Made by a program: the position numbers and the translations under genes | DNA from: Edaphochlamys debaryana | Lineage: Eukaryota; Chlorophyta; Chlorophyceae; Chlamydomonadales | Assembly (NCBI GenBank): GCA_016858145.1 | Contig: JAEHOE010000235.1 | Span: forward strand, 26,036-90,035 | Direction of reading: 5' to 3' | Length of the DNA: 64,000 nucleotides | Notes under the pieces: model-generated | The model's database searches: none | Told to the model about the DNA's origin: nothing | The model's input: only the letters and a program-made list of their open reading frames with translations | Shown here: piece after piece, positions 46,265 through 59,800 of the stretch | How the letters are laid out: each line of letters begins with the position of its first letter | How positions within the stretch are numbered: the stretch's first letter is position 1

Positions 46265-47623
46265 TGTACTGCCGGGTTGAGGGGGTCACGCGATGTGTGT
46301 GGGCACACGCACGCCGGCTTGCTCAGGATTCTCTGTGCTCACGCCAGGCCGCACGCTGCATACCGGTAGGCCTGGGCTACCACCAAAGGAAAGGGGTTTT
46401 GGTTGAGCAGCGAGATTTGGGGGGGGGGGACGCAGCAAGGGGACATGGGAGACGGGAGCAGGGCAGAAGGTGCCCGTTTGGAGGGCCTTCAGCCTGGAAC
46501 AGGAGGGGTAACGGGACGAGCGCCATAGATGCGTACGGCGCATGAGAGAGGGATTGACTATGGCGTTATTCGTTGACTGGGGCGTTGACTTTGGCCCCAT
46601 ACATTGACCCAGTTGTACGGCCGTCGGAGGCCTTATGTATTGAGCTGTTGAGGTACAGGGCACGCAGGTGGTGCACCTGCGTGGCAAGTGAGGGTTGGAA
46701 GCGGTGCTTCGAGGAAGTAGGTACTATACGAAGGGATCGTAGAGGGAGTTGCGCGGTTGCTTCCTCTGGCGGGCGGTGCCCGTTGTTCTGTACGACACCC
46801 AGGCCGTATTTAAGGCCGGGGGTCGCCGGCTGCGACAAGCCCCGGACCCCAAGAACAGGTCGACTGGAGCACCGAACGGAATTGGTGGACCCCTGATACC
46901 CGAGACCTCTGATAGGTCCCAAGCGCAAGGAAACAGGAGGAATCTCTCGTGTAAACGTGTGTGCTCGACTGAGGCCCTGTCCCTCGAGCCCCTCTGCGCC
47001 ATCGAGCGCCCAGCCTGGCCCTTTGGCCCCTGCACGCAGTCAGCCTGCGTTGCGACCCGTGCCCCTAGCCCCCACGGACTGAGCCTCAGCGCCCTCCGTC
47101 GAGTGGAGCTACTTCTCTGCTGAGCAGCCCAGCTCGGCCCCCTTTCCAGTGTCAGCCCGGCTCTAACCCGCTGCGTTGCCCTTGCTGTGCGCGCGAGCGG
47201 AGGCGAGCGCGTGCCTTTTAGCCCGCTTCGCTTGTTCTCTCCTTGGCTCTGCCCGTCTGCACGCCAAGCCCGTGTCCTGCGGTTACCCCTTGACCCGACA
47301 CGCCCTATCCCGGAGCCCTGTCGTCACCCCGACGCCGTCAGTGCCTCCGTCCCCCTCAAACCTACCTCAATTACCCGCAACGCTTCGGCAAAGCAAGTCT
47401 TCCGCTGCGCAGTATCCCTGCTGCTATCGCCTGTCCGTTGATTGAGCCCCGCAACGTGACACGCACCCAATCCGGCATTGACAGAGACTGGTGCCAGTGT
47501 CCTCACACACTGAGCCCCGGGCACCTCACGGCGCAGCAGAACGGTCCTAGGGCAAGCCAGCACACCACTCCGGAACGCGCGAAAATTTTGTGTGGTTACG
47601 TGTTTGGTGTGGCTTCGCTTTCT
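46265..47623 (+). repeat. Right long terminal repeat
   Basis: Same sequence as the left LTR, with TATTTAAG at 46807-46814 and TGTAA at 46950-46954. AGCCATGGCAGC precedes it (46253-46264) and follows it (47624-47635). Confidence 0.85.
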
Positions 47624-47689: not shown

Positions 47690-47999
47690 TGTGAGTGCGT
47701 GACTCCTCAAGCCAGCCACAACTACTGGATTGCTGTAATTATAAACGTGTGAGAGTTGCTTGTGTATGCGCAGTCTCTGTAGAACTGCGGCTCAGGCTGG
47801 CGAACAACGGCTTACGTGCTCGTTGTAACTTAAACACGGCTCGCGCTGACCCTGGGCCAGGCAGATACAGTAGCGAGGGAATGGGTGAAGCTATATACTA
47901 CTGCAATGAAGACTGGCATCGGGTTGCGCTCGGTTGTCTCCAATGAGCCCGGTCGCTCCTTTCGGGTTCCAGCCCGTCGCGCCCCCTACCTCGAGCTAT
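47690..47999. other. Short host-like spacer between two mobile elements
   Basis: AT content is higher than average and no ORF is convincing. It could be the promoter of the possible signal-peptide exon. Nothing more specific is visible. Confidence 0.3.
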
Positions 48000-48350
48000 G
48001 GGTACGACCACTATACCAGTCCCAGGCATGCCTGGGCGAGTGGCCCATACAGTGGTACCAGGCATGCCTGGCGATTACCTCCTCAAAACGCTTGTTTAAT
48101 GCATGGTTATATAAGCACTAACCTATGCGCGATCGCTGGAGCTGAAGCCGCGACGAACGGTTGACCATGAGCGGACATGTCGCCCATGACATGAACAGCC
48201 CACTCGCAGCCAAACCCAAGTCCATACCGCCAACCTGGGCGTGGTGCAAGCTAGGAGCTTAAGTGCACGTATATATGTAACCATAAGCTATCGCTGGGCC
48301 GGCGGGCAGGCGGTGGGGGCATTCGGGTGGGTGGGTTTTAGCCTGTTGTG
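48000..48350 (+). repeat. Left terminal inverted repeat
   Basis: It begins GGGTACGACC and is the reverse complement of 56450-56800 with few changes. Palindromes CCCAGGCATGCCTGGG (48021-48036) and CCAGGCATGCCTGG (48058-48071) could be transposase-binding sites. Confidence 0.88.
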
Positions 48351-48401
48351 GGTGTCAGGACACACTATGGGCTACGGCAAGGTGCAGCCGGCTGACCGAA
48401 C

Positions 48402-49749
48402 TGCTTCTGACTTAGCGTATGGCTTCGAGGCCGCCTGACTTCGCGTTTTTGGCTCTAGAGTCGCCAAGGGGGGGAGTTCGGTCAGCCGGCTGCACCTTGC
48501 CGTAGCCCATAGTGTGTCCTGACAGCTGACAGGGCACAGTACGGTCACTGTCACAGTATGGTTGCCGGTTGGGAGTTGAGGTAGGTTGCTGGAGGATTTG
48601 TGGTTGGTCTGCGGGTTGGTGCCGGAGGTTACGTCTAGGGTTGAGACTAGGGTTGTGACACCAGGGTTTGCCTCGTGGGACACGTGGCATGAGCACCTGA
48701 GGTACGGCAATGAGCCCTTCCGATCGGGGGGACTTAGGCGAACGCCCAGCTTCCGACTGGCAAGTCGGAAGCACTACTTGCGGCGGATCTACTCTGCTGT
48801 GACTGTAACTACTAGAGTGTTGCTGCTCTGCTGCCTCTAGCGCCTGCGGCGCGGTCTCTGTGCCATCCGACGACTCTAGTAGTTACAGTCACAGCAGAGT
48901 AGATCCGCCGCAAGTAGTGCTTCCGACTTGCCAGTCGGAAGCTGGGCGTTCGCCTAAGTCCCCCCGATCGGAAGGGCTCATTGCAGTACCTCAGGTGCTC
49001 ATGCCACGTGTCCCACGAGGCAAACCCTGGTGTCACAACCCTAGTCTCAACCCTAGACGTAACCTCCGGCACCAACCCGCAGACCAACCACAAACCTCCA
49101 ACAACCTACCTCAACTCCCAACTGGCAACCATACTGTGACAGTCCTCGGGTTTACAATGAAGGATCCTCAAAAGAATCACAGCGCTGGACGCTGCGGCCG
49201 TTCGGCCTACTCCACGGGCCTTGCCTCCTGCAAGACCTAGAACTGCGCAAAGCGCGACCATCAACCGCCTGGGGCTTGACCCCGCCCGTAACTGGGCCAT
49301 AGAACCGCCCATCCCCTAAGGGTACCCCTGCCGCATCCAGCCCCCCCCCTCACGAAACAGGATATCCGCCCCTTTAAACCAGCGAGGCGCCAGGCCCTTG
49401 GCTTGCAGCTCATCGAAGATAGGCTTCCGCTCCTTCCTCAGCGCCCTGCCGAGCGCGTTGAGGTAGGGCGTCACCACCACCCCGCTCACCACCCGCACCT
49501 CCTTCGCCCTGCGCCGAAACTCAGCCCGCTGTGCTGCCGTTACCCCGACAACCACATTCCACCCCCCCTCCCCCTTCCAGCTCCGCTGGACGGTAGCCTG
49601 GAGTGACCGTACTGTGCCCTGTCAGCTGTCAGGACACACTATGGGCTACGGCAAGGTGCAGCCGGCTGACTGAACTCCCCCCCTTGGCGACTCTAGAGCC
49701 AAAAACGCGAAGTCAGGCGGCCTCGAAGCCATACGCTAAGTCAGAAGCA
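48402..49749. repeat. Fold-back (long palindrome) with arms of about 417 bp
   Basis: The left arm 48402-48818 and the right arm 48873-49749 are inverted copies around a loop of about 54 bases. The right arm is split by the ORF1 fragment (about 49141-49600). A further inverted piece of the arm lies at 48362-48402. It may be a MITE or fold-back transposon nested in the larger element, or part of that element's own end. Confidence 0.85.
49141..49600 (-). mobile_element. 5'-truncated second copy of the ORF1-only LINE-like element
   Basis: The minus strand 49555-49316 encodes the C-terminal 79 residues of the ORF1p-like protein (RAEFRRRAKEVR, PYLNALGRALRK, KGADILF; ends with TAG). A 3' tail finishes in CATTGTAA, as in the intact copy at 37697-38829. 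It interrupts the right fold-back arm; a 3-base AGT at the junctions is the only possible target duplication. Confidence 0.75.
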
Positions 49750-49873
49750 GCTTGCTCAAACTGTACACAACAGTTCCCTCCAGCAGAGAAGCCTCAATCC
49801 TCCCCCATGCTCGCTAAGTGCTCTCACCAGGCTACAGCCAGCAGAAATCGTCTCCCTCGGTTCACCACCCTAT

Positions 49874-51419
49874 CTACGCATGCACCCAGTGCCCAGCGCC
49901 TCCCTTCCCGATACCCCTCATCAGCTGCGCCCTCATGGTCGCATCCCGGAACACTAACAGCCAAGCTCCAGGCTTTCCGTTGACGTATCCACAGGTGTCT
50001 CCAGTGATGATGGCCAGCCGCTCGTCCTCCGTGAAGGTGTTGAGCAGGGCAGCCCATGCGTCCGGCGGGGCCGTAAGCATGCGCCGTGGGATGAAGGCCA
50101 CGACTAGCGGCACCATGGCGACGGCCAGGGGCAGCCAGAAGGGCAGAAGCTCCGGGTGCGGAGCGGAGATGATGAGCCAGGACTCGCCGGGCGTGGCGAG
50201 GCGGCGGTAGGTCCCAGGTTGCAGGGGATCCAAGCGGGGCCAGCCTGGGGCCTCGGTGGCCCGGCCCCCGTTGGCGCAGACGGAGTAGCCTCTCGCGCGG
50301 AGCGCGTTGGCTAGAGTCTCATCGCCGGCGCAAGGGTCCAGAATGACGGGCGATCGGCTCGCGTCCAGGTGGTCCAGAAGTAGGTTGAGCACCTCCTCAG
50401 CGGGCGCAGGGTGCGTACCCGTGGGAAAGGACTCAGGCAGGCTAGAGGCCAGCCCGGGCACGGAGCGCAGCTGCAGCAGCGCCGTGACGAGGGCCGTGGT
50501 GGACGGTTGAGCGCATGCTTTGGCTGCTCGCAGAGTCAGGCGCTCCGCGGTGCCGTCAGTGTAGCGCGCCTCAATGGGGCGAGAGTGCGGTTCGTCTGAT
50601 TTGTAGTGCAGGGTGCCCCTACGGTTCACGAAGGTGTTGGTCGCGGGGTCTCGGACCTTGCGGGAGCAGGGAATGCCCTCCAGCGCCTTGGCCTCGTCGA
50701 GCCGGCGGCGCGCTTGAGCGGAGGGGAAGATCTGCGGCTGCGGTGCCTCGCGCGGTGCGGGGGCAGGCAGCTGATCAATTGTTGCCGGTGTCACGCCGCG
50801 GGCATGGCAGTCGGGGCAAGTCCAGGTGCCACGGGGCACGCGCTGGAGCGGGGGTCGAAGGCAGTACAGGTGCCAGCCGGTGCCGCACCCGTCGCACATG
50901 ACCATCTTGGACTCGTCGCCTGGGAAGGCACAGATCTCGCAGGGCAGGTCCAGCGGCGGCACTGCGATGCGGGAATCGACGATTGGGTCCAGGTCTTGGA
51001 GGTGGCAGGGAGCAAGGTTGCTCACGTGCTCCTTGCGGATGGTGCCGTTGCGGCCCATCAGCTCGGCAACTCCCTCTGGGCTCACGGCCACAATGCGGAG
51101 CACGGTGTCACGGACGGGCAGTTGGAGCGCGTTGTTCTGGTTGCGTAGGATGACGTAGACGTAGTCACCTACGTTGAATTTGGTAAAGCGGGGCTTGTAG
51201 CCGCCAGCTCGCACGCGGGCGTACTTGTGGCGGTCCCGCCACTGCGCCGTCAGCAGGTTCTGGCCGTTGAAAGGCGCGGCCTGTTGCACGTTGTGTGAGC
51301 GCAGCATGACGAGTTGGTCGGCCCATTGCGGATCGGCATCAGGGTCGATCGCCTCTGCCCACAGCTCGGCGGCGCCGAGGGGCACAGCAGGCGGCGCGCC
51401 GTACATGAGCTCAGTACGC
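49874..51419 (-). CDS. Integrase C-terminus, PHD finger and methyltransferase-like domain (part of element polyprotein)
   Basis: After the ELMYGAPP motif of Ty3/gypsy integrases comes a basic region with NVGDYVYV (51175-51150), the usual integrase C-terminal beta-barrel. Next is a C4HC3 PHD finger (50950-50800: CEIC, CDGCGTGWHLYC, then WTCPDC), a histone-tail reader fold. A linker follows, then a Rossmann-type stretch: VILDPCAGDETLANALRARGY (near 50345-50280) fits the SAM-binding motif I of DNA methyltransferases. Further on, SAPHPELLPFW sits where an NPPY/DPPY catalytic motif would be, so the enzyme may be inactive or of another kind. The open frame runs upstream to 51661, but that part lies in the inverted segment and is not genuine. 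Domain calls are by motif only. Confidence 0.65.
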
Positions 51420-51535
51420 CTCCGCCGAGCGCTGGGACGAGTACCTGCCTTGGGTCCTGATGGGCTACCGCTGCTCCCCTCAGAAGTCCACCGGCAAGTC
51501 CCCGTCCCAGCGCTCGGCGGAGGCGTACTGAGCGC
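51413..51535. repeat. Micro-inversion breaking the integrase
   Basis: A 28-base sequence appears in opposite orientations at 51413-51440 and 51508-51535. Between them the plus strand, not the minus, encodes the missing integrase piece (YLPWVLMGYRCSP, then KSTGKSP). The minus-strand frame hits a stop at 51480. The segment has been flipped with an arm duplicated, as in template switching or fold-back repair. Confidence 0.85.
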
Positions 51536-53280
51536 AGTACTTGCGCAGAGAGCGTTTGCAGACCTGCACGACCCTTTCCGCAGCGCCGTTGGCCTGCGGG
51601 TGGTTGGGCGACGTGTGACGATGGTCGATGAAGCATTGCTCGAGCAGGGCGGCAAAGGCACCTTGGAACTCGGAGCCTCCGTCGGTCACAACTTTGGCGG
51701 GCGCCGAGAAGCGGGCTAGGACGTTGGCTAGGAAGGCGTTGGCCACCTCCTCAGAGCCCTTGGAGCGAAGCGGAATCATCTCCACGTGCTTGGTCCAAGC
51801 CTCGACGCAGACCATGACGTACTCGTAGCCGGAGCTCGTGCGAGTGAGAGGCCCAGCCAGGTCCACGTGCCAGCGGAAGAAGGTCCCACGGATTGGCAGG
51901 GGGTGCAGCTCGGGCGGAGTGACGTTACCGACGGTGTTGGCGCGATCGCACAGGGGGCAGCGCTGAACCACATACTCAACATCCCTGGACATGCCTTGCC
52001 ACCATTAGCCGTTCTGGACCAGGCACAGGGTGCGGCGAGCTCCCCAGTGCCCCAGGCGGTGGTGGGCCTCCTGGATGATGGCTTGGCGGCGCTCAGGTGG
52101 AGGTACCTCGCGAATGGTGCTGTTGGGCATGCGGCGGTACAGGCGGTTGCTCCGGTCGTCAAAACGGTAGTTGATAGCATGACGCGCTACCCGTCTAGCC
52201 GCCTCTCCGACAATGCCGGCGGGGCAGGTGCCCTGGGCGAGGTAGTGGAGCAGTTGCTTGTCCTCCCAAGGGTCGCAGTAGCGGGACTCCTGGGCGTCGG
52301 CGACTGCCGAGACCAGGGCAGAAGTCCAGTGCTCGTTGGATTGGTGGTGCTGCAGCGCGGCGGTGACCAGGGCTGCAGGCTGTGCTGCTGTGTTGTTTTC
52401 AATCTCCCTACCCCCCCCCCAGCGGGGCAGCCGGTGGCGCCTGCTGTGGTGGCATGCGGGCCATGTGGTGCGGGGTGACGAAAGTGCGTTGAAGGGCTTG
52501 TGCGCAGAGACAGAGGCGTGCAGCAGCTGGAGCATGGTGAAGAGGCCAGCCGCCCAGTCGTCGGGGACGACCAGGAAGTCCCCGCAGACGCGCAGCTTGG
52601 ACGCGGTGCCGGGCGTGATGACGTTCCATACGCGGGCGATGCCGAGGGGTCGGCTGCTCTGGCGCAGGGACTTGACGCCGGCACTGCAGGGCTCCAGCTT
52701 GACGCCGAGGCTCTCGTACAAGCTCTGGACCATCAGACCCACCGTGTTGCACATAGTGTCGGGACCGATGCTGGGAGGGAAGATCAGGGTACCGTCGGCC
52801 TTGAGCAGGCCAGCGCCGCGCTTGGGGTCGCTGTTGTCGACGTAGTGGAGGGAGCCGGCGAGCTCGCTCCTCAAGTACTGCTTGATCTCCTCCACCTTGG
52901 AGCCGGCGGTGGCAGCTGTGGATGAGCAGGCGAGGGCGGAGGCCTCGGGCGCCACCTCAGGGGTCTTGAGCAGATCCAGCAGCTCGGCCATCATCTTGCC
53001 CAGGATCTCGAGCGCCGCAGCCGTCTTGCCTGGCCCCATGGGGCCGAAGCGGACGTTGGAGCTGCCGTCCTTCATGTGCGAGAAGGAGACCTGCTCCACG
53101 GGCGGCAGGCGCATGGAGCTGGGCAGCGGCCCGGGGGGCAGCTGCCGGAAGCTGGCAGGCATGGGCTCCTTGGTGGTGTTGAAGGCTGCGGCCGAGGAGG
53201 CCTGCGGCGGCCACACGGTCTGGCCCTGGACAGGCATTGGCGGCCCAGTCGGTGACACGGCGGGGCTGTTGAACTGCTGG
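51480..53280 (-). pseudogene. pol: Protease-integrase part of the element polyprotein, disrupted, no reverse transcriptase
   Basis: Read on the minus strand. A retropepsin-like region lies near 52760-52540: DTM replaces the DTG/DSG active-site triplet, then YESLGVKLEP and LRVCGDFLVVPDDW. It runs directly into the stretch that normally sits just before integrase (DKQLLHYLAQG, LYRRMPN). There is no room for reverse transcriptase or RNase H. The integrase zinc-binding motif (HHRLGH, then CPLC) is cut by TAA at 52005-52007, where WW follows in the same frame. The catalytic core is present: WHVDLAG, VVTDGGSEF and PQANGAAERV give the D, D, E triad at Ty3/gypsy spacing. The frame ends at the micro-inversion (51480). 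The junction with Gag needs a one-base shift near 53275. Confidence 0.75.
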
Positions 53281-55575
53281 TGACACGAACGTACTGTTGT
53301 ACGGGTGCTGGGCCACCGAGAGGACGTCCGTGTGCAGAGCGGAGGCCGAGCTCGGCGCGTACGAGGATGGCGGTGGGTGCGAGAAGGGCGGAGCCCCGTA
53401 GCCCATGGGCCAGGACGGTGGCGGCGGCACACCGGGCGGCGGGGCCGCCGGGGCCCGGAAGGAGGCCGAGGACGTGAAGGCACCTGCAGGCGGAGCCTGA
53501 GGGCCCTGGCCGTAGCCGTAGCTGTGGCCGTACGACGAGGGCGGCGGCGTGGAGTAGCCGTAGCCGTAACCGTAGGACGCGGGACCATGGCCGTAGTGCA
53601 GCGCCGCAGGCGGAGCCTGGGACCGCAGGTACGGCGAGGCCTCTGCAGCGTAGGCCGCGTGCTGCGGGTTGCCCTTGCCTCGGTTGTTGTCCTTGGGCTT
53701 GGCGTAGTCCTGCCTGCGGGGGCGGTCGCCCTGCGGCTGCTGCTGGCGCGGCGCCGAGAGCAGCGCCGCGTACTCCGGCTTCTTACGGACCAGCTCCGCC
53801 CAGGCATTGTCCATGTTGATGGACTTGGGGTGGCCGGGCAGCGCGGTCAGGTTGCCGGCCTTGGCGTTGGCCGTGCAGAAGTCCACCGAGTGGTGCTTGG
53901 CGTTGCAGAAGGAGCAGTCGCCCGTGGAGCCGGTGGCGGGGCCGGGCTCTGCCTTGGGCCAGCGGGGCTTGCTGCCGCTGCTCGACTGCTGCTGCTGCTG
54001 GCGCCCGCCCGCCTGGCCGCCGTAGCCCTTGCCGTGGTCCTGGTGACCGGAGTGCGTGGCCAGAGCCGAGACGCTGTTGGCCATGCGCTCGATCTGCGAC
54101 GAGAGGCGGGCGATGTCGGCAGAGCCCACGCCGGGGGCGCTGGTGCTCTCGGAGACGGGGCCAGCAGACGTGGCGAACGCCTTGACCTTCTTGGGGTCCT
54201 TGACCTTGCTGTCGGCCACCTCCTGCTCGATCCGGAAGGCACTGTAGATCTCGTGGCAGCGGACTATGGCCTTGGCAAGGTCCCAGGCGGTGGGGTCGCT
54301 GTCCTCCTTGCCCAGGTAGCTGACCTTGATGGTGTCGTTCATGAAGCTGGCCTTGACCCAGTGCGACTCCATGACGGCCCGGAGCCAGCGCTCGGTGCGG
54401 ACGCGCCTCGAGATGCTGGCCTCGCTGATGGGCCTGACGATGGAGAGGAAACGAGCGCCCGCCGTCATGGGGTCCTCGAGGGGCTCGACGCCGAAGGTGA
54501 CGTAGCTCTTCTTGGACGTGGGGTCCTCGCGGCCGAACTTCTTGGCCAGGGCCTCCAGCAGGTGCTTGCAGGCGTCGAGCTTAAGGTCAGGGAGCTTGGC
54601 CTGGCCCTTGTACTCGGGGGGATTGGCGTCGCCGGCGTGGAGCAGGGTCCACTTGTCCTTGTGCTCAGCCAGGGCCTCGGCGCCCTCGGTCGCGCACCAG
54701 CCTTGCACAACCAGGTTGAGGTTGTTGCCCCCATCCTTGGTGAGCCCCCCGGCCATGCCGGCGAGGATGAGCTCGGCAATCAGGGCCTTGTTGTCGCCTC
54801 GGTCACTCATGGCCCACTGCTTGACGAACAGGCGAGCGGACTGCAGGAAGGCAGGAAGGGAAGTTGGCTTAGCATCGAAGCTGGGGCAGTTGCGGTCGCC
54901 CATATCTTCGTCTTCACTCCACCTGGGCGGAGCCCGGGGAGCTAGCTGAGCAGCAGGTGCCGGCGCAGGCAGCGCCGGGGCGGGAAGCGGAAGGCCTCCG
55001 CCGTCCCCCTCAGCAGGTGCTAAGCCTAGGGCCCCCTCAGCCGCAGGCTGGGGGTCTCGTACTTGATCGGCCGGGGCGGGGCCCGGGCCGAGATCTTGCT
55101 GCTCACCAGGCGCGTCGGGCAGTGCCGGCAGGCGATGCCCGAGCTCCTCGGTGAGTGCAGGTAGAGCCCCCGCAGCCGAGGGCTGCGGGGCTGGCAGAGA
55201 GGGAACGCGGGCGGGGCCCGGTCCCGAAGGCGCTCCAGCAGCGCTGCCACCGGAGTTGGAGCCAGAAGGACCTGCAACGTCGTTGCGGGTTGGCTCAGTC
55301 GCGAGGTCGGCCGAAGGCGCGCGATGATGTTGAAGCTCACCGGAGCCTCCGGAGTTCGACGGCCCAGCACCGGCGGAGCCGGTGGGGTCTTGCTCAAATA
55401 GCGGGTTGCCGCGAAGAGCAGTTGTAGCCGCTCGCGGGTCAGCGAGGCCTCGTCCGCGAGTTGGGCTTGCAGGTGCCGAGCGTATGGGAGTACCTGCGTT
55501 TCGGGCGTTCAGCAGAGCAGCCACATCTAGGGACCATAAGCTATCGCTAGGCCGGCGGGCAGGCGGCGGGGGCAC
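52957..55575 (-). CDS. gag: Gag-like protein with CCHC zinc knuckle
   Basis: The open frame spans 55575-52957. The first ATG in frame is at 54903 (MGDRNCPSF), so 55575-54904 is either leader or uses another start. Residues after the ATG resemble a capsid domain (SLPAFLQSARLFVKQW, then DACKHLLEALAKKFG, then FLSIVRPIS). A zinc knuckle CSFCNAKHHSVDFC (CX2CX4HX4C) lies near 53925-53880 after a Gln-rich stretch. A Tyr/Gly/Pro-rich tail (YGYGYGY, near 53530-53600) follows. After about 53275 the frame is out of register with the protease-integrase frame, and its last 100 residues are probably not genuine. The open frame begins inside an inverted unit of the element's own satellite. Confidence 0.75.
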   Translation of the reverse strand: MPPPPARRPSDSLWSLDVAALLNARNAGTPIRSAPASPTRGRGLADPRAATTALRGNPLFEQDPTGSAGAGPSNSGGSGELQHHRAPSADLATEPTRNDVAGPSGSNSGGSAAGAPSGPGPARVPSLPAPQPSAAGALPALTEELGHRLPALPDAPGEQQDLGPGPAPADQVRDPQPAAEGALGLAPAEGDGGGLPLPAPALPAPAPAAQLAPRAPPRWSEDEDMGDRNCPSFDAKPTSLPAFLQSARLFVKQWAMSDRGDNKALIAELILAGMAGGLTKDGGNNLNLVVQGWCATEGAEALAEHKDKWTLLHAGDANPPEYKGQAKLPDLKLDACKHLLEALAKKFGREDPTSKKSYVTFGVEPLEDPMTAGARFLSIVRPISEASISRRVRTERWLRAVMESHWVKASFMNDTIKVSYLGKEDSDPTAWDLAKAIVRCHEIYSAFRIEQEVADSKVKDPKKVKAFATSAGPVSESTSAPGVGSADIARLSSQIERMANSVSALATHSGHQDHGKGYGGQAGGRQQQQQSSSGSKPRWPKAEPGPATGSTGDCSFCNAKHHSVDFCTANAKAGNLTALPGHPKSINMDNAWAELVRKKPEYAALLSAPRQQQPQGDRPRRQDYAKPKDNNRGKGNPQHAAYAAEASPYLRSQAPPAALHYGHGPASYGYGYGYSTPPPSSYGHSYGYGQGPQAPPAGAFTSSASFRAPAAPPPGVPPPPSWPMGYGAPPFSHPPPSSYAPSSASALHTDVLSVAQHPYNSTFVSPAVQQPRRVTDWAANACPGPDRVAAAGLLGRSLQHHQGAHACQLPAAAPRAAAQLHAPAARGAGLLLAHEGRQLQRPLRPHGARQDGCGARDPGQDDGRAAGSAQDP

Positions 55576-56515
55576 TCGGGTGGGTGGGATCCAGCCTGTT
55601 GTGGGATTCGGTGCACCCCGAGGTCACGAATCCCACGTCGCAATGCATAGCGCCGCCGGTGCAGGCCTGACCGGAAGCGGCCCTGCAGGTCTCAGCGTCT
55701 CAACGGTCAGGCCTGCGCCGGCGGAGCTAGGCATCGCGACGTGGGATTCGTGACCTCGGGGTGCACCGAATCCCACAACAGGCTCAATCCTACCCACCCG
55801 AGTGCCCCTGCCGCCTGCCCGCCGGCCTAGCAATAGCTTATGGTCCCTAGATGTGACCTGCGGGGGCGCTTCCGGTCAGGCCTGCGCCGGCGGAGCTAGG
55901 CATCACGACGTGGGATTCATGACCTCGGGGTGCACCGAATCCCACAACAGGCTCAATCCCACCCACCCGAATGCCCCCGCCGCCTGCCCGCCGACCTAGC
56001 GATAGCTTATGGTCCCTAGATGTGACCTGCGGGGGCGCTTCCGGTCAGGCCTGCGCCGGCGGAGCTAGGCATCGCGACGTGGGATTCGTGACCTCGGGGT
56101 GCACCGAATCCCACAACAGGCTCAATCCCACCCACCCGAGTGCCCCCGCCGCCTGCCCGCCGGCCTAGCGATAGCTTATGGTCCCTAGATGTGACCTGCG
56201 GGGGCGCTTCCGGTCAGGCCTGCGCCGGCGGAGCTAGGCATCGCGACGTGGGATTCGTGACCTCGGGGTGCACCGAATCCCACAACAGGCTCAATCCCAC
56301 CCACCCGAGTGCCCCCGCCGCCTGCCCGCCGGCCTAGCGATAGCTTATGGTCCCTAGATGTGACCTGCGGGGGCGCTTCCGGCCAGGCCTGCGCCGGCGG
56401 AGCTAGGCATCGCGACGTGGGATTCGTGACCTCGGGGTGCACCGAATCCCACAACAGGCTAAAACCCACCCACCCGAATGCCCCCACCGCCTGCCCGCCG
56501 GCCCAGCGATAGCTT
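55526..56515. repeat. 169-bp satellite, about five direct units plus one inverted unit
   Basis: Direct units start at 55711, 55880, 56049, 56218 and 56387 (GCCTGCGCCGG), exactly 169 bases apart, the last partial and passing into the right terminal repeat. One unit lies inverted at 55526-55690. Each unit contains short inverted segments (GTGGGATTCG and CGAATCCCAC). The short ORFs it produces are by-products: 169 is not a multiple of three. Confidence 0.92.
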
Positions 56516-56800
56516 ATGGTTACATATATACGTGCACTTAAGCTCCTAGCTTGCACCACGCCCAGGTTGGCGGTATGGACTTGGGTTTGGCTGCGAGTGG
56601 GCTGTTCATGTCGCGGGCGACATGTCCGCTCATGGTCAACCGTTCGTCGCGGCTTCAGCTCCAGCGATCGCGCATAGGTTAGTGCTTATATAATCATGCA
56701 TTAAACAAGCGTTTTGAGGAGGTAATTGCCAGGCATGCCTGGTACCACTGTATGGGCCACTCGCCCAGGCATGCCTGGGACCGGTCACATGGTCGTACCC
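56450..56800 (-). repeat. Right terminal inverted repeat
   Basis: Mirror of the left repeat, with the same paired palindromes at 56729-56742 and 56764-56779. Its inner end merges with the last partial unit of the 169-bp satellite. Confidence 0.88.
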
Positions 56801-59800
56801 CTTACTGCTACCTCGGCAAGAACTGTGTTCGCTGCTCCAGCGCACTGCATTGCTGTGATGGTAAGCTGTTACTGGCGATGCTCCCTCAGTTGTCGAAAAA
56901 GGTGCTCTGGTTGCGCAACCAGGTTGCGCAACCTCGGGTTGCGGTCCCTCCCGTTGCCAATGGCCTTTCGGGTTCCTCCCGGGCTGACCATTCTCGCGAC
57001 TGGGAGCAACCCCGACTTCCTAACACTCACCAGCACAGCCAGAGGCTGCTGAATTGTGAGGACCCTACTGGAGCAGGCCAAACCAGGCAATGCAGCCAGG
57101 CCGTAAGCGCGCTCCCCTCGTGCTCGTCCAAAAGCTTCTGTTTCTCCCGTGTTCCACTGGGAGCCTGCCTGTCGTTCTCTCAATCGGCCTGGTCTGTAGG
57201 CTTTCCGCAACCCGGTTGCTCTTAGGCGTGTGCGCATGCCTTGGCATGACAATCAGCAAGGTCTCCAATCGTAGAATCCTCGCTTCATCAGAGGAGGGGT
57301 TTGCACGCTCATGCCCCCACGCACGTTGTGATGAGAGTCACCCCAGGTCCAGTGGGTCTGCCTTGGATACCGGTACTGGCGTCCCAGTGCTTGCGGCTGC
57401 TGCTAATGCGATGCAGCCAGCACGCGACCAACAGAATGCGCTTACACGCGCACGGCCTCGCTAGCCTCGCCTGCAAACATGCGTCTCGCCAAGCCCGACA
57501 GAGCTCGCTTACTGCACTAGTGCGCACTGCACTAAGAAAGATTGGTCCGGCTCCCTCTATCGCTGGTCGCGGTGCACGATGCCCCGACCACGGGGTCCCG
57601 CTGGACCCGCCCTCCCACCGCACTCTGACCAGCCGTCGTGTCAGATAGGTACATAACCTCTCCTCCACGGCACCGCTCCCTGAACGGTATCCTTCCCATG
57701 GACATGGGGAGCGGCCCGCTATGCTATGCTATGTCAAGCTAGCTGTGCTATATCCTCGCAGCGCGTTGACGTTCAGTGCACGGCACCTGCACGCTGGACG
57801 CTAGGTGAACGACTCCCCCTCGGCCAGAGACGTATCCGCACAGAGGCCCTTCCCTTCCACGCTCCCAGACAGGTCTGCGTGATTCGCGGTGCACGCGTTA
57901 CGTGCGCCCCACAACCATGCGCTGCGCTTCGTCGATGTCTTCTACCCCCCCATACCTGTTAGCCATGGCGGTCAGCCCCAGTGTGTCCCCACATGGATGG
58001 CGCTTTGTGCGCGGGGGCACGGCGCAGTCCAACGCTGGTGAGCGCTTTGCATGAGCTGAGGAGAGGGGAAGGGCAAGCATCCGTCGGATGACCGCGTTGA
58101 AGGCTTCAGCACGCAGCACCAGGCAGCACGAGGCACGAGGCACGTGGACAGCAGCGGACGGGGCCCCGAGTCAGCCGGCCTGCTGCCTGCTAAGAAGGCC
58201 GCGGCCGAACCCTAGTCGTGTGCCCCTACCTCAAGCCATTACCAAACCCCTCCTGCCCCCCAGTTGCGTTGGCGAGGCCGTAAGCCCATAGCTTGGCCCC
58301 CTTTCCTCCCCCGCGCCCAGTGTCCGGCCCCACAGGGATGGGCTAACTCTGCGGTTACGCTGCGGTCGAACCCTAGTCATGTGCACCTTAAGCCATTACC
58401 GACCCCCTCCTGCCCCCCATGAGCAATGGCTTGGCCCCTACCGGGCCCCGTCCGGCCCCTCTCTCACGCTGACCTGCAGATGGCGCCATCGCGTTGCGCA
58501 TCGTGTTGCGCGCCCGAGTGTCTTCCTCACGTCGCATCGGTCCTTTGCTGGCGTGAATTGACTGCCAACAACGCGACATGGCGCTGCCGTCCAGTAGACT
58601 GGCAAAATGCGCGAAGCTGCAGCGCTCGCGTGTCGTGCCCTGCCAACGTCTCGATCTACTAGCTTTGCGGAAGTCCGAAAGGCAAGACATTGCTTGTGGA
58701 GCTTGTGGGGAGGCCTCGTCGAGGTTTGACTTCAAGTCTGTTGCTGTAGTCAACGCGAGACGAAGCAAGAAGCTATGGATTGTGAAGCTCTTTTACGAAG
58801 GTATGTCCCGCTGAAGGCTCGACAGCGGCACGCTTGGCCGCGTGACCCCGCGTGGCACGTACCCGACGATCATCTTCCAGAGTGCGCACGCCCCCACTTA
58901 CCGATAGAATGGCAAATCCAGCCCTGCACAGCCGCCACCCCGTTCCCTCCTCTGCCACTTACCCCATCGCAGTCGCCCCCTTCGCCCACCCCTCCAGCCA
59001 TCTGTTCCCCCTGGCCTCCCCTCCTCCTTCACCCTGCGGGAGTATAAGCAGCCCCCACACGCAGTCCCTTCTCCCATGCTACATGCCTGCAAAACTCGCA
59101 CAGTCGCCCTGCCCCGGGCGAGCCTCCTTGAAAGCGGCCCAGCCGATAATTGCTTCATAGAGATCACTTCGTGATCCACCAACTTTCCGGTCTTCCGGTC
59201 CGTGGGGGCGCCCCGCTTGTCGGTCTGAGGCGCCGTCGAGCTGTCGCGAGATGCACAAAGGGGCATCGCAAGTGATACCGGTAAGTGGTGCTGAAGCTTT
59301 TAAGCCCAGTCGTCCAACGATCGAGTAGGGCCGGACGGTCTGTCGGTCGTGTCGCATCCCCGTCCGCGTCGCATCCTCCCTCGCTCCCCCCCAGAAGCCC
59401 TCCCAACTCCTCGCGCACTCCCGCACCGTGCACACACAATAACGGTGTCGCATCGTTCACAAGCGCCAAGCGCCTGCCAAGGCTGGGCACCTTGCTCTGG
59501 TCTCGGTTTTGTCGGCGGTCGTACCTCCTCAACGCCGCTCCGGCGCGGCACCGCAATCCGGGACCGACGCGTCACAAGCTGCATCACACTTCGTGGTCAT
59601 TGCGCCGCGCCTTGCTTTGTTTGCCTTCACCTTGCCCCTGCATATCCTCCCCTCCCTGCCCTTCCCCGCCCGCCCGCCATCCCCACCACCACGCCACGCA
59701 GGCATGCACCCCACGCCGCCGCAGCCCCGACCACCCCATCCCTCGACGCCAGCGCCTTCACCACCCCTGGCCTCAACCGCCGCCGCCGCCCCCGCACCGC

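Follow-up and report, generated by a model that had tools for sequence, protein, structure and literature searches.

A rearranged Ty3-like retrotransposon copy inside an inverted-repeat element of Edaphochlamys debaryana, and a probable route of integration of its family from circular cDNA opened inside the LTR

In most accounts, LTR circles are products of reverse transcription that lead no further. For foamy virus, however, the contrary has been argued, and its integrase cuts the palindrome of the closed LTR-LTR joint in vitro (both in passages of PMC1180852). Tf1 and Tj1 are self-priming LTR retrotransposons, in which a stretch of the 5′ LTR or RNA 5′ end can pair with the primer site, as described in part of PMC4600332. 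Split direct repeats in the order A1-B1-A2-B2 are known from PAT, Kangaroo and TOC elements, and a putative methyltransferase domain from the DIRS group (sections of PMC4157794). KnitGypsy-Dnmt3 from Klebsormidium nitens has DIRS-like repeats together with Gypsy-like domains according to the legend of Fig. 4, as well as a DNA methyltransferase in Pol, and it is the published precedent for the A-B-A-B layout described below (PMC5890265, in the portions available). Section 9 of that paper gives no integration mechanism, a text search of the available text found no mention of PHD, and the name KnitGypsy-Dnmt3 was found in no other paper of the open-licence literature searched. Ginger1 transposons combine a gypsy-like integrase with inverted repeats and CCGG/CCGT duplications, and one listed family carries a PHD (excerpts of PMC2836005). 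In the accessible parts of the open-licence literature searched, we found no description of elements that integrate from circles by opening them within the LTR.

The window analysed here is a stretch of 64,000 nucleotides from Edaphochlamys debaryana. The original prediction, made from the letters alone, had described an element with Gag, integrase, a PHD finger and a methyltransferase-like domain but no reverse transcriptase (RT) between inverted repeats, and had proposed either a new element class or a dead chimera. We are fairly confident that it is a dead RT-less copy of a retrotransposon family, F4, lying in an unrelated inverted-repeat element, and that its relatives likely keep RT and RNase H and likely integrate from circular cDNA opened inside the LTR. 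The dead chimera is thus the half of the proposal that stands, while the new RT-less class does not.

The outer element spans 47993-56808, limits that were set by comparing its inverted-repeat ends with other copies. The ends are ~360 bp long, in good agreement with the predicted ~350 bp, and the 6-bp target duplication TACCTC lies on either side. Six ends were compared, two from the window and four from elsewhere, and they are of two types, GAGCTATGGGTACG and GCAGTAAGGGGTACG. A search for further copies between the same inverted repeats had been proposed. Among the best 39 of 58 candidates scored, four other ends were found, and each of them is followed by 169-bp satellite arrays. The sequence adjacent to these four ends showed neither Gag nor integrase, and the contigs that carry them have no entry among the gag matches listed. 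The outer element is a TIR element with long satellite arrays as cargo. Two of the four ends, in C360 and C252, have a common outer flank and thus are probably one event that was duplicated. When an empty site was sought, the left-flank query (693) recurred only from 1 to 324-348, and the insertion point was not found. Part of this flank (window 47300-47623) occurs as a repeat at dispersed genomic sites. In C222, C128, C360 and C252 the satellite arrays adjoin 353-bp inverted-repeat ends, and in the small contigs C318 and C349 the 169-bp satellite is spread over much of the contig.

The cargo of the window element belongs to a different family, F4, of ~14-kb Ty3-like retrotransposons, and this copy has been rearranged. 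Window positions 52531-55520 match at least 39 other loci with 93-97% identity (best 40 of 192 candidates scored). What comes after the counterpart of 52531 in C81 is not the integrase but another 6.8 kb, and only then does window 52390-52532 resume. This 6.8-kb stretch carries RVT_1 and RNase H; therefore, RT and RNase H are absent from the window, as predicted, because 6.8 kb were deleted at 52531/52532. The other predicted domains, namely the Gag knuckle, integrase, PHD finger and methyltransferase-like domain, are all present in the window (Table 1). Pfam matches in the C81 copy (RVT_1, RT_RNaseH, Integrase_H2C2 and rve) are in the order of Ty3/Metaviridae Pol, and C81 is the one F4 copy in which RT was confirmed. 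RT-side sequence follows gag in 27 of the 29 loci examined (in L051 in part only; not in L036 and L042), and none of the 29 matched the satellite or the outer inverted repeat. Other copies with LTRs and RT, with the window copy an internal deletion in an unrelated inverted-repeat element, are what the original prediction had named as speaking against a new class, and C81, with its terminal direct repeats, RT and RNase H, is such a copy.

The Gag-side region stops at the satellite, so the 5′ UTR and A1 were lost from the window copy. Since the left joint, satellite/TGTCAGG, is the retroelement's own terminus, the retroelement was probably inserted into the satellite and rearranged later. The fold-backs at the two inner joints of the window (48353-49143 and 55522-55704) could include assembly error. 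For annotation, the locus is a warning: where integrase without RT is found between inverted repeats, a nested deletion can be the cause.

Table 1. Features of the outer element and its retroelement cargo in the window
Feature	Position	Strand	Remark
TACCTC target-site duplication, left	47987..47992		ends set against other copies
Left terminal inverted repeat of outer element	47993..48352	+	inner 73 bp (48280-48352) satellite-like
B repeat of retroelement	48353..48402	+	starts exactly at F4 3′ terminus (TG), abuts satellite
Retroelement 3′ end, duplicated and inverted; includes an internal piece, B (48475-48524) and part of A	48401..48875	-	L063 3845-4321 reversed
Second A part, oriented oppositely to 48401..48875 piece	48873..49143	+	L063 3902-4175
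458-bp insertion without match in C81 copy	49144..49601		overlaps 101-aa ORF 49316-49621 (minus)
A2 start, integration terminus TGACAGGGCAC	49602..49625	-	
B1 repeat, upstream of A2	49627..49676	-	
Polypurine tract CCAAGGGGGGGAG at B1 start	49675..49687	-	
C-terminal methyltransferase-fold domain (as modelled)	49877..50401	-	motif IV degenerate (SAPH)
PHD finger	50807..50941	-	
~105 bp inverted relative to C81	51401..51505		between integrase core and C-terminus
Integrase core (rve)	51597..51875	-	D, D, E present
Stop codon splitting integrase H2C2 finger	52005..52007	-	
Deletion joint	52531..52532		6.8 kb (RT, RNase H, upstream pol in C81) missing
Gag-side region	52533..55523	-	~100 bp missing at 53266/53285 vs C81
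Satellite unit, inverted orientation	55522..55694	-	
169-bp tandem satellite array of outer element	55704..56510	+	
Right terminal inverted repeat of outer element	56437..56808	-	
TACCTC target-site duplication, right	56809..56814		

The C81 copy of F4 is ~14.1 kb long. Its 5′ end is formed by the direct repeat A1, of which a 99.1% identical copy, A2, lies close to the 3′ end, and a 50-bp repeat B flanks A2 on both sides, so that the overall order is A1-internal-B1-GC-A2-B2. For the 3′ ends of the family, the best 40 of 147 candidates were scored. The order B2-A2-B1-internal was found in 38 of the 40 (C81 included), with matches starting at query base 1-3, and the two exceptions were C278, which starts at the contig end, and C24, which is without B2. 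All 29 of the 5′ ends begin with TGACAG against other DNA, and B-GC precedes none of them (two pairs have common flanks). The two ends of F4 are unlike each other, with A only at the 5′ end and B1-GC-A2-B2 at the 3′ end, and there is no identical LTR at both ends. Exact 4-bp target duplications were present at the A1 and B2 ends in 14 of the 15 paired copies and no target duplication in C463; C15, whose 3′ end was not located in the stretch taken, was left out of the pair counts. TG...CA ends with a short target duplication are present as in Ty3/Metaviridae, and open frames of >4,300 codons are kept in some copies.

In the 15 F4 copies, A1 and A2 were 99.2% identical within copies vs 95.1% between copies (210 cross-comparisons), and the nearest match of A1 was the A2 of the same copy in 13 of them. 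Similarly, B1 and B2 differed by 0.27 mismatches per 48 within and 0.80 between copies (0 of 20000 shuffles), and four copies had private substitutions common to B1 and B2. The likeness within copies suggests that A and B alike are made afresh in every cycle.

Matches to protein P0047 in the genome fell into about four groups according to our grouping by identity and coverage. One of them, F3, is a sister family with the same A1-internal-B1-GC-A2-B2 layout, which was thus found in two families. Among 40 scored F3 matches, 14 span B1-A2-B2 and 21 contain A alone. The remaining five are a split match in C3 and four A-B forms, which probably arose by recombination. Twelve F3 copies were paired on one contig each, with ends 11-17 kb apart, and the target duplication is exactly 4 bp in ten of them (3 bp in C48, 5 bp in C454). 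The F3 copy in C177 is A1-internal-B1 without A2 and has a GGAT duplication on both sides. This is the product expected of a 1-LTR circle, and recombination of B1 with B2 also gives it. A further B copy, 378 bp beyond the B1 end in L096 (C177:125150-126550), is fitted by no model here. At C48:5108 and C19:15466, F3 copies are nested in F4-like B sequence. Two more PHD-integrase groups, F1 and F2, have long open frames (C65, C57, C62, C115 and others); when the layout of C115 (F2) was compared, a 511-bp unrelated repeat dominated the result. KnitGypsy-Dnmt3 resembles F4 and F3 in its DIRS-like A-coding-B-A-B repeats and Gypsy domains; beyond what the available portions of PMC5890265 report for it, F4 and F3 have a DDE integrase with PHD, 4-bp duplications, a putative self-priming site, a purine tract and variable A2/B2 joints.

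A purine tract, CCAAGGGGGGGAG, is at the start of B1 and is exact in 14 of the 15 F4 copies, and it was also present at both F3 3′ ends read. Directly after A1, F4 carries GCTTCCGACTT, which can pair with AAGTCGGAAGC within the A of the same element and was exact in 27 of 29 (the L051 row of this count reads a neighbouring inverted A-B piece). The F3 priming site GCTCCCGTCTT was predicted from the F3 hairpin before the stretches were read, and was then found in 12 of 12. In C89, 0 of 5000 shuffles of A gave a match as long (one F3 copy, plain letter shuffles). Because the purine tract is at the B1 start, plus-strand synthesis would begin at B, and the tract and the priming site together predict cDNA ends of AGTTCGG and CCGATTT. 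With the purine tract before B1 and the putative self-priming site after A1, the LTR of the cDNA is likely B-GC-A. Like Tf1 and Tj1, F4 and F3 have a complementary segment (11 nt, just after A, with the RNA 5′ end predicted), but they differ in that their LTR would be B-GC-A with the integration ends ~50 bp inside (compared with the available part of PMC4600332). A search of 38 sequences with aragorn found no tRNA, which says nothing on tRNA priming. In C24:1141679-1142138, one match reads B-GC-A and then the priming site; it looks like an LTR with an internal region on either side, as in a tandem or recombinant.

The A2/B2 joint equals the predicted cDNA ends AGTTCGG/CCGATTT joined to each other, with a variation of 1-2 nt. 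In 40 F4 matches the joint contained AG (30), TAG (7), TG (1) or no extra base (2), and the 12 F3 copies were in four classes, CGCAATTT/AGTC (8), CGCAATT/AGTC (2), CGCAATTTT/AGTC (1) and CGCAATTT/GTC (1). The B1/A2 spacer, for which 0-8 nt were allowed, was 2 nt in all 67 matches (two of them the window's own), and its letters were GC in all 28 shown. The variable A2/B2 joint and the constant B1/A2 spacer suggest that A2/B2 is made anew by end joining, while B1-GC-A2 is copied. When 15 copies were compared, each of the four joint variants had a copy of the common class as its nearest neighbour (C242 and C463 are 99.8% alike), a weak comparison since 11 of the 15 belong to that class. The variants may be partly inherited. 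In the C81 form, the sequence CCTGACA-GC-TGACAG extends to a 14/16 palindrome, or 12/16 with the commoner next base.

From these sequence features we lean towards the view that a giant Ty3-like clade obligatorily integrates from end-joined LTR circles, and that its DDE integrase bypasses the ends of the cDNA to cut a closed palindrome ~50 bp inside U3. The RNA would start at a predicted AAGTCGGAAGC in A (F4) or at AAGACGGGAGC (F3) and, as in Tf1, would prime itself on the site just after A (GCTTCCGACTT in F4). The plus strand would start at B, so that the linear cDNA would be (B-GC-A)-internal-(B-GC-A). Joining of its ends would give a 2-LTR circle, the joint of which would be the later A2/B2. 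The integrase would then cut the closed attachment site CCTGACA-GC-TGACAG built into one LTR (U3), with CCTGACAGCTGACAGG as the predicted substrate and a cut at CA/TG; GC would be discarded, and A1...B2 would be inserted with a 4-bp duplication. The PHD finger might tether the integrase to histone H3. With the cut inside U3, every insertion would carry the circle joint as a scar in the obligate-circle reading. A linear concatemer joined head-to-tail gives the same product, and the sequence here fits both. The single B-GC-A-priming-site arrangement in C24 is counted against the circle model. In foamy virus, the palindrome cut is that of the LTR-LTR joint, whereas in F4 the closed palindrome (14/16) is built into U3 (compared with passages of PMC1180852). 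A family that has the predicted circle joint in its insertions would be a natural system for testing LTR-circle integration. If integration does proceed in this way, DIRS-like split repeats would arise without a tyrosine recombinase, which would also explain those of Klebsormidium, for which section 9 of PMC5890265 gives no mechanism.

The order A-B-A-B equals that of PAT elements and of the Klebsormidium Gypsy element, and thus the repeats of F4 and F3 might be genuine split direct repeats like those of PAT, Kangaroo and TOC, in which case the RNA spans A1 to B2, B1-A2 bridges circle formation and all joints are inherited through the RNA. Such DIRS-type bridging was our first model, and it was dropped once an LTR of B-GC-A was seen to agree with the purine tract, with the priming site and with the varying joint. 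We now consider it unlikely, since the A2/B2 joint varies even between near-identical copies while the B1/A2 spacer is constant, and since a purine tract at the start of B and a priming site at the end of A are present. Moreover, both families have 4-bp duplications, and we know of no target duplication in PAT, Kangaroo or TOC elements. No tyrosine recombinase match was found by Pfam in the five C81 ORF pieces scanned, in which rve is present. F4 and F3 therefore share the A1-B1-A2-B2 arrangement with these elements but differ in having a DDE (rve) integrase and target duplications (compared with sections of PMC4157794).

An ordinary LTR retrotransposon would also show the observed TG...CA termini and 4-bp duplications. 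These are ordinary for Ty3-type integrases, and the integrase might simply trim ~50 bp off the end of a linear cDNA, with B2 added by another route. Such a cDNA would have no B after A2, yet B was there in 38 of the 40 scored F4 3′ ends, and it is joined to A2 at the predicted cDNA ends; this explanation is quite improbable. We give next to no credence to the new class, in which an integrase element without RT would have inverted repeats that belong to it. Gag and integrase in the window do lie between inverted repeats with a 6-bp duplication, but among the loci with 93-97% identity to the cargo the 29 examined all lack these inverted repeats, and 27 of them have RT-side sequence. Besides, satellite flanks the four other inverted-repeat ends found, the retroelement ends at its own terminus in the left joint, and the window integrase has a stop codon and an inversion. 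Membership of the Ginger transposons fails on the same evidence, with satellite at the four other ends and no inverted repeats at any of the 29 cargo loci, and the duplication is TACCTC and not CCGG/CCGT. In contrast to Ginger1 as characterised in excerpts of PMC2836005, the inverted repeats of the window are unrelated to the integrase. The preferred reading is still that of a deleted F4 copy whose relatives likely integrate from circular cDNA.

The integrase ORF has 90 homologues (7,990 candidates scored), including entries from Volvox africanus and Tetrabaena socialis and Chrzof1-coded entries, which we take to be Chromochloris. Taken by themselves, these homologues suggest that the host is likely a volvocine alga. 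Many of the 90 carry a PHD and seven carry the C5 methylase PF00145, while the C-terminal domain is present in 13 (phmmer). One scan of viral contigs with P0005 as query found no relatives. H3-reading PHD fingers are among the best matches of the window PHD finger. A check of the methyltransferase fold had been proposed, and modelling of the C-terminus indeed gives a class-I (M.TaqI/KsgA-like) methyltransferase fold, the catalytic motif of which is degenerate. In most relatives, motif I is DP[WFC]xG-like. Of the 12 relatives that extend as far as motif IV, 7 have SPW there, but the window and P0001 have SAPH, which makes catalysis doubtful, and the fold is probably non-catalytic in the F4 family. 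Pfam detected no C5 methylase, remnant included, in the C81 ORFs scanned; by eye only, P0002 and C81 have a C5 methylase remnant without PCQ. A C5 cytosine methylase is ahead of the integrase in P0020, P0027, P0041 and P0053, looking intact by eye (PCQ motif) in the first three, and a PHD follows in P0020, P0027 and P0053.
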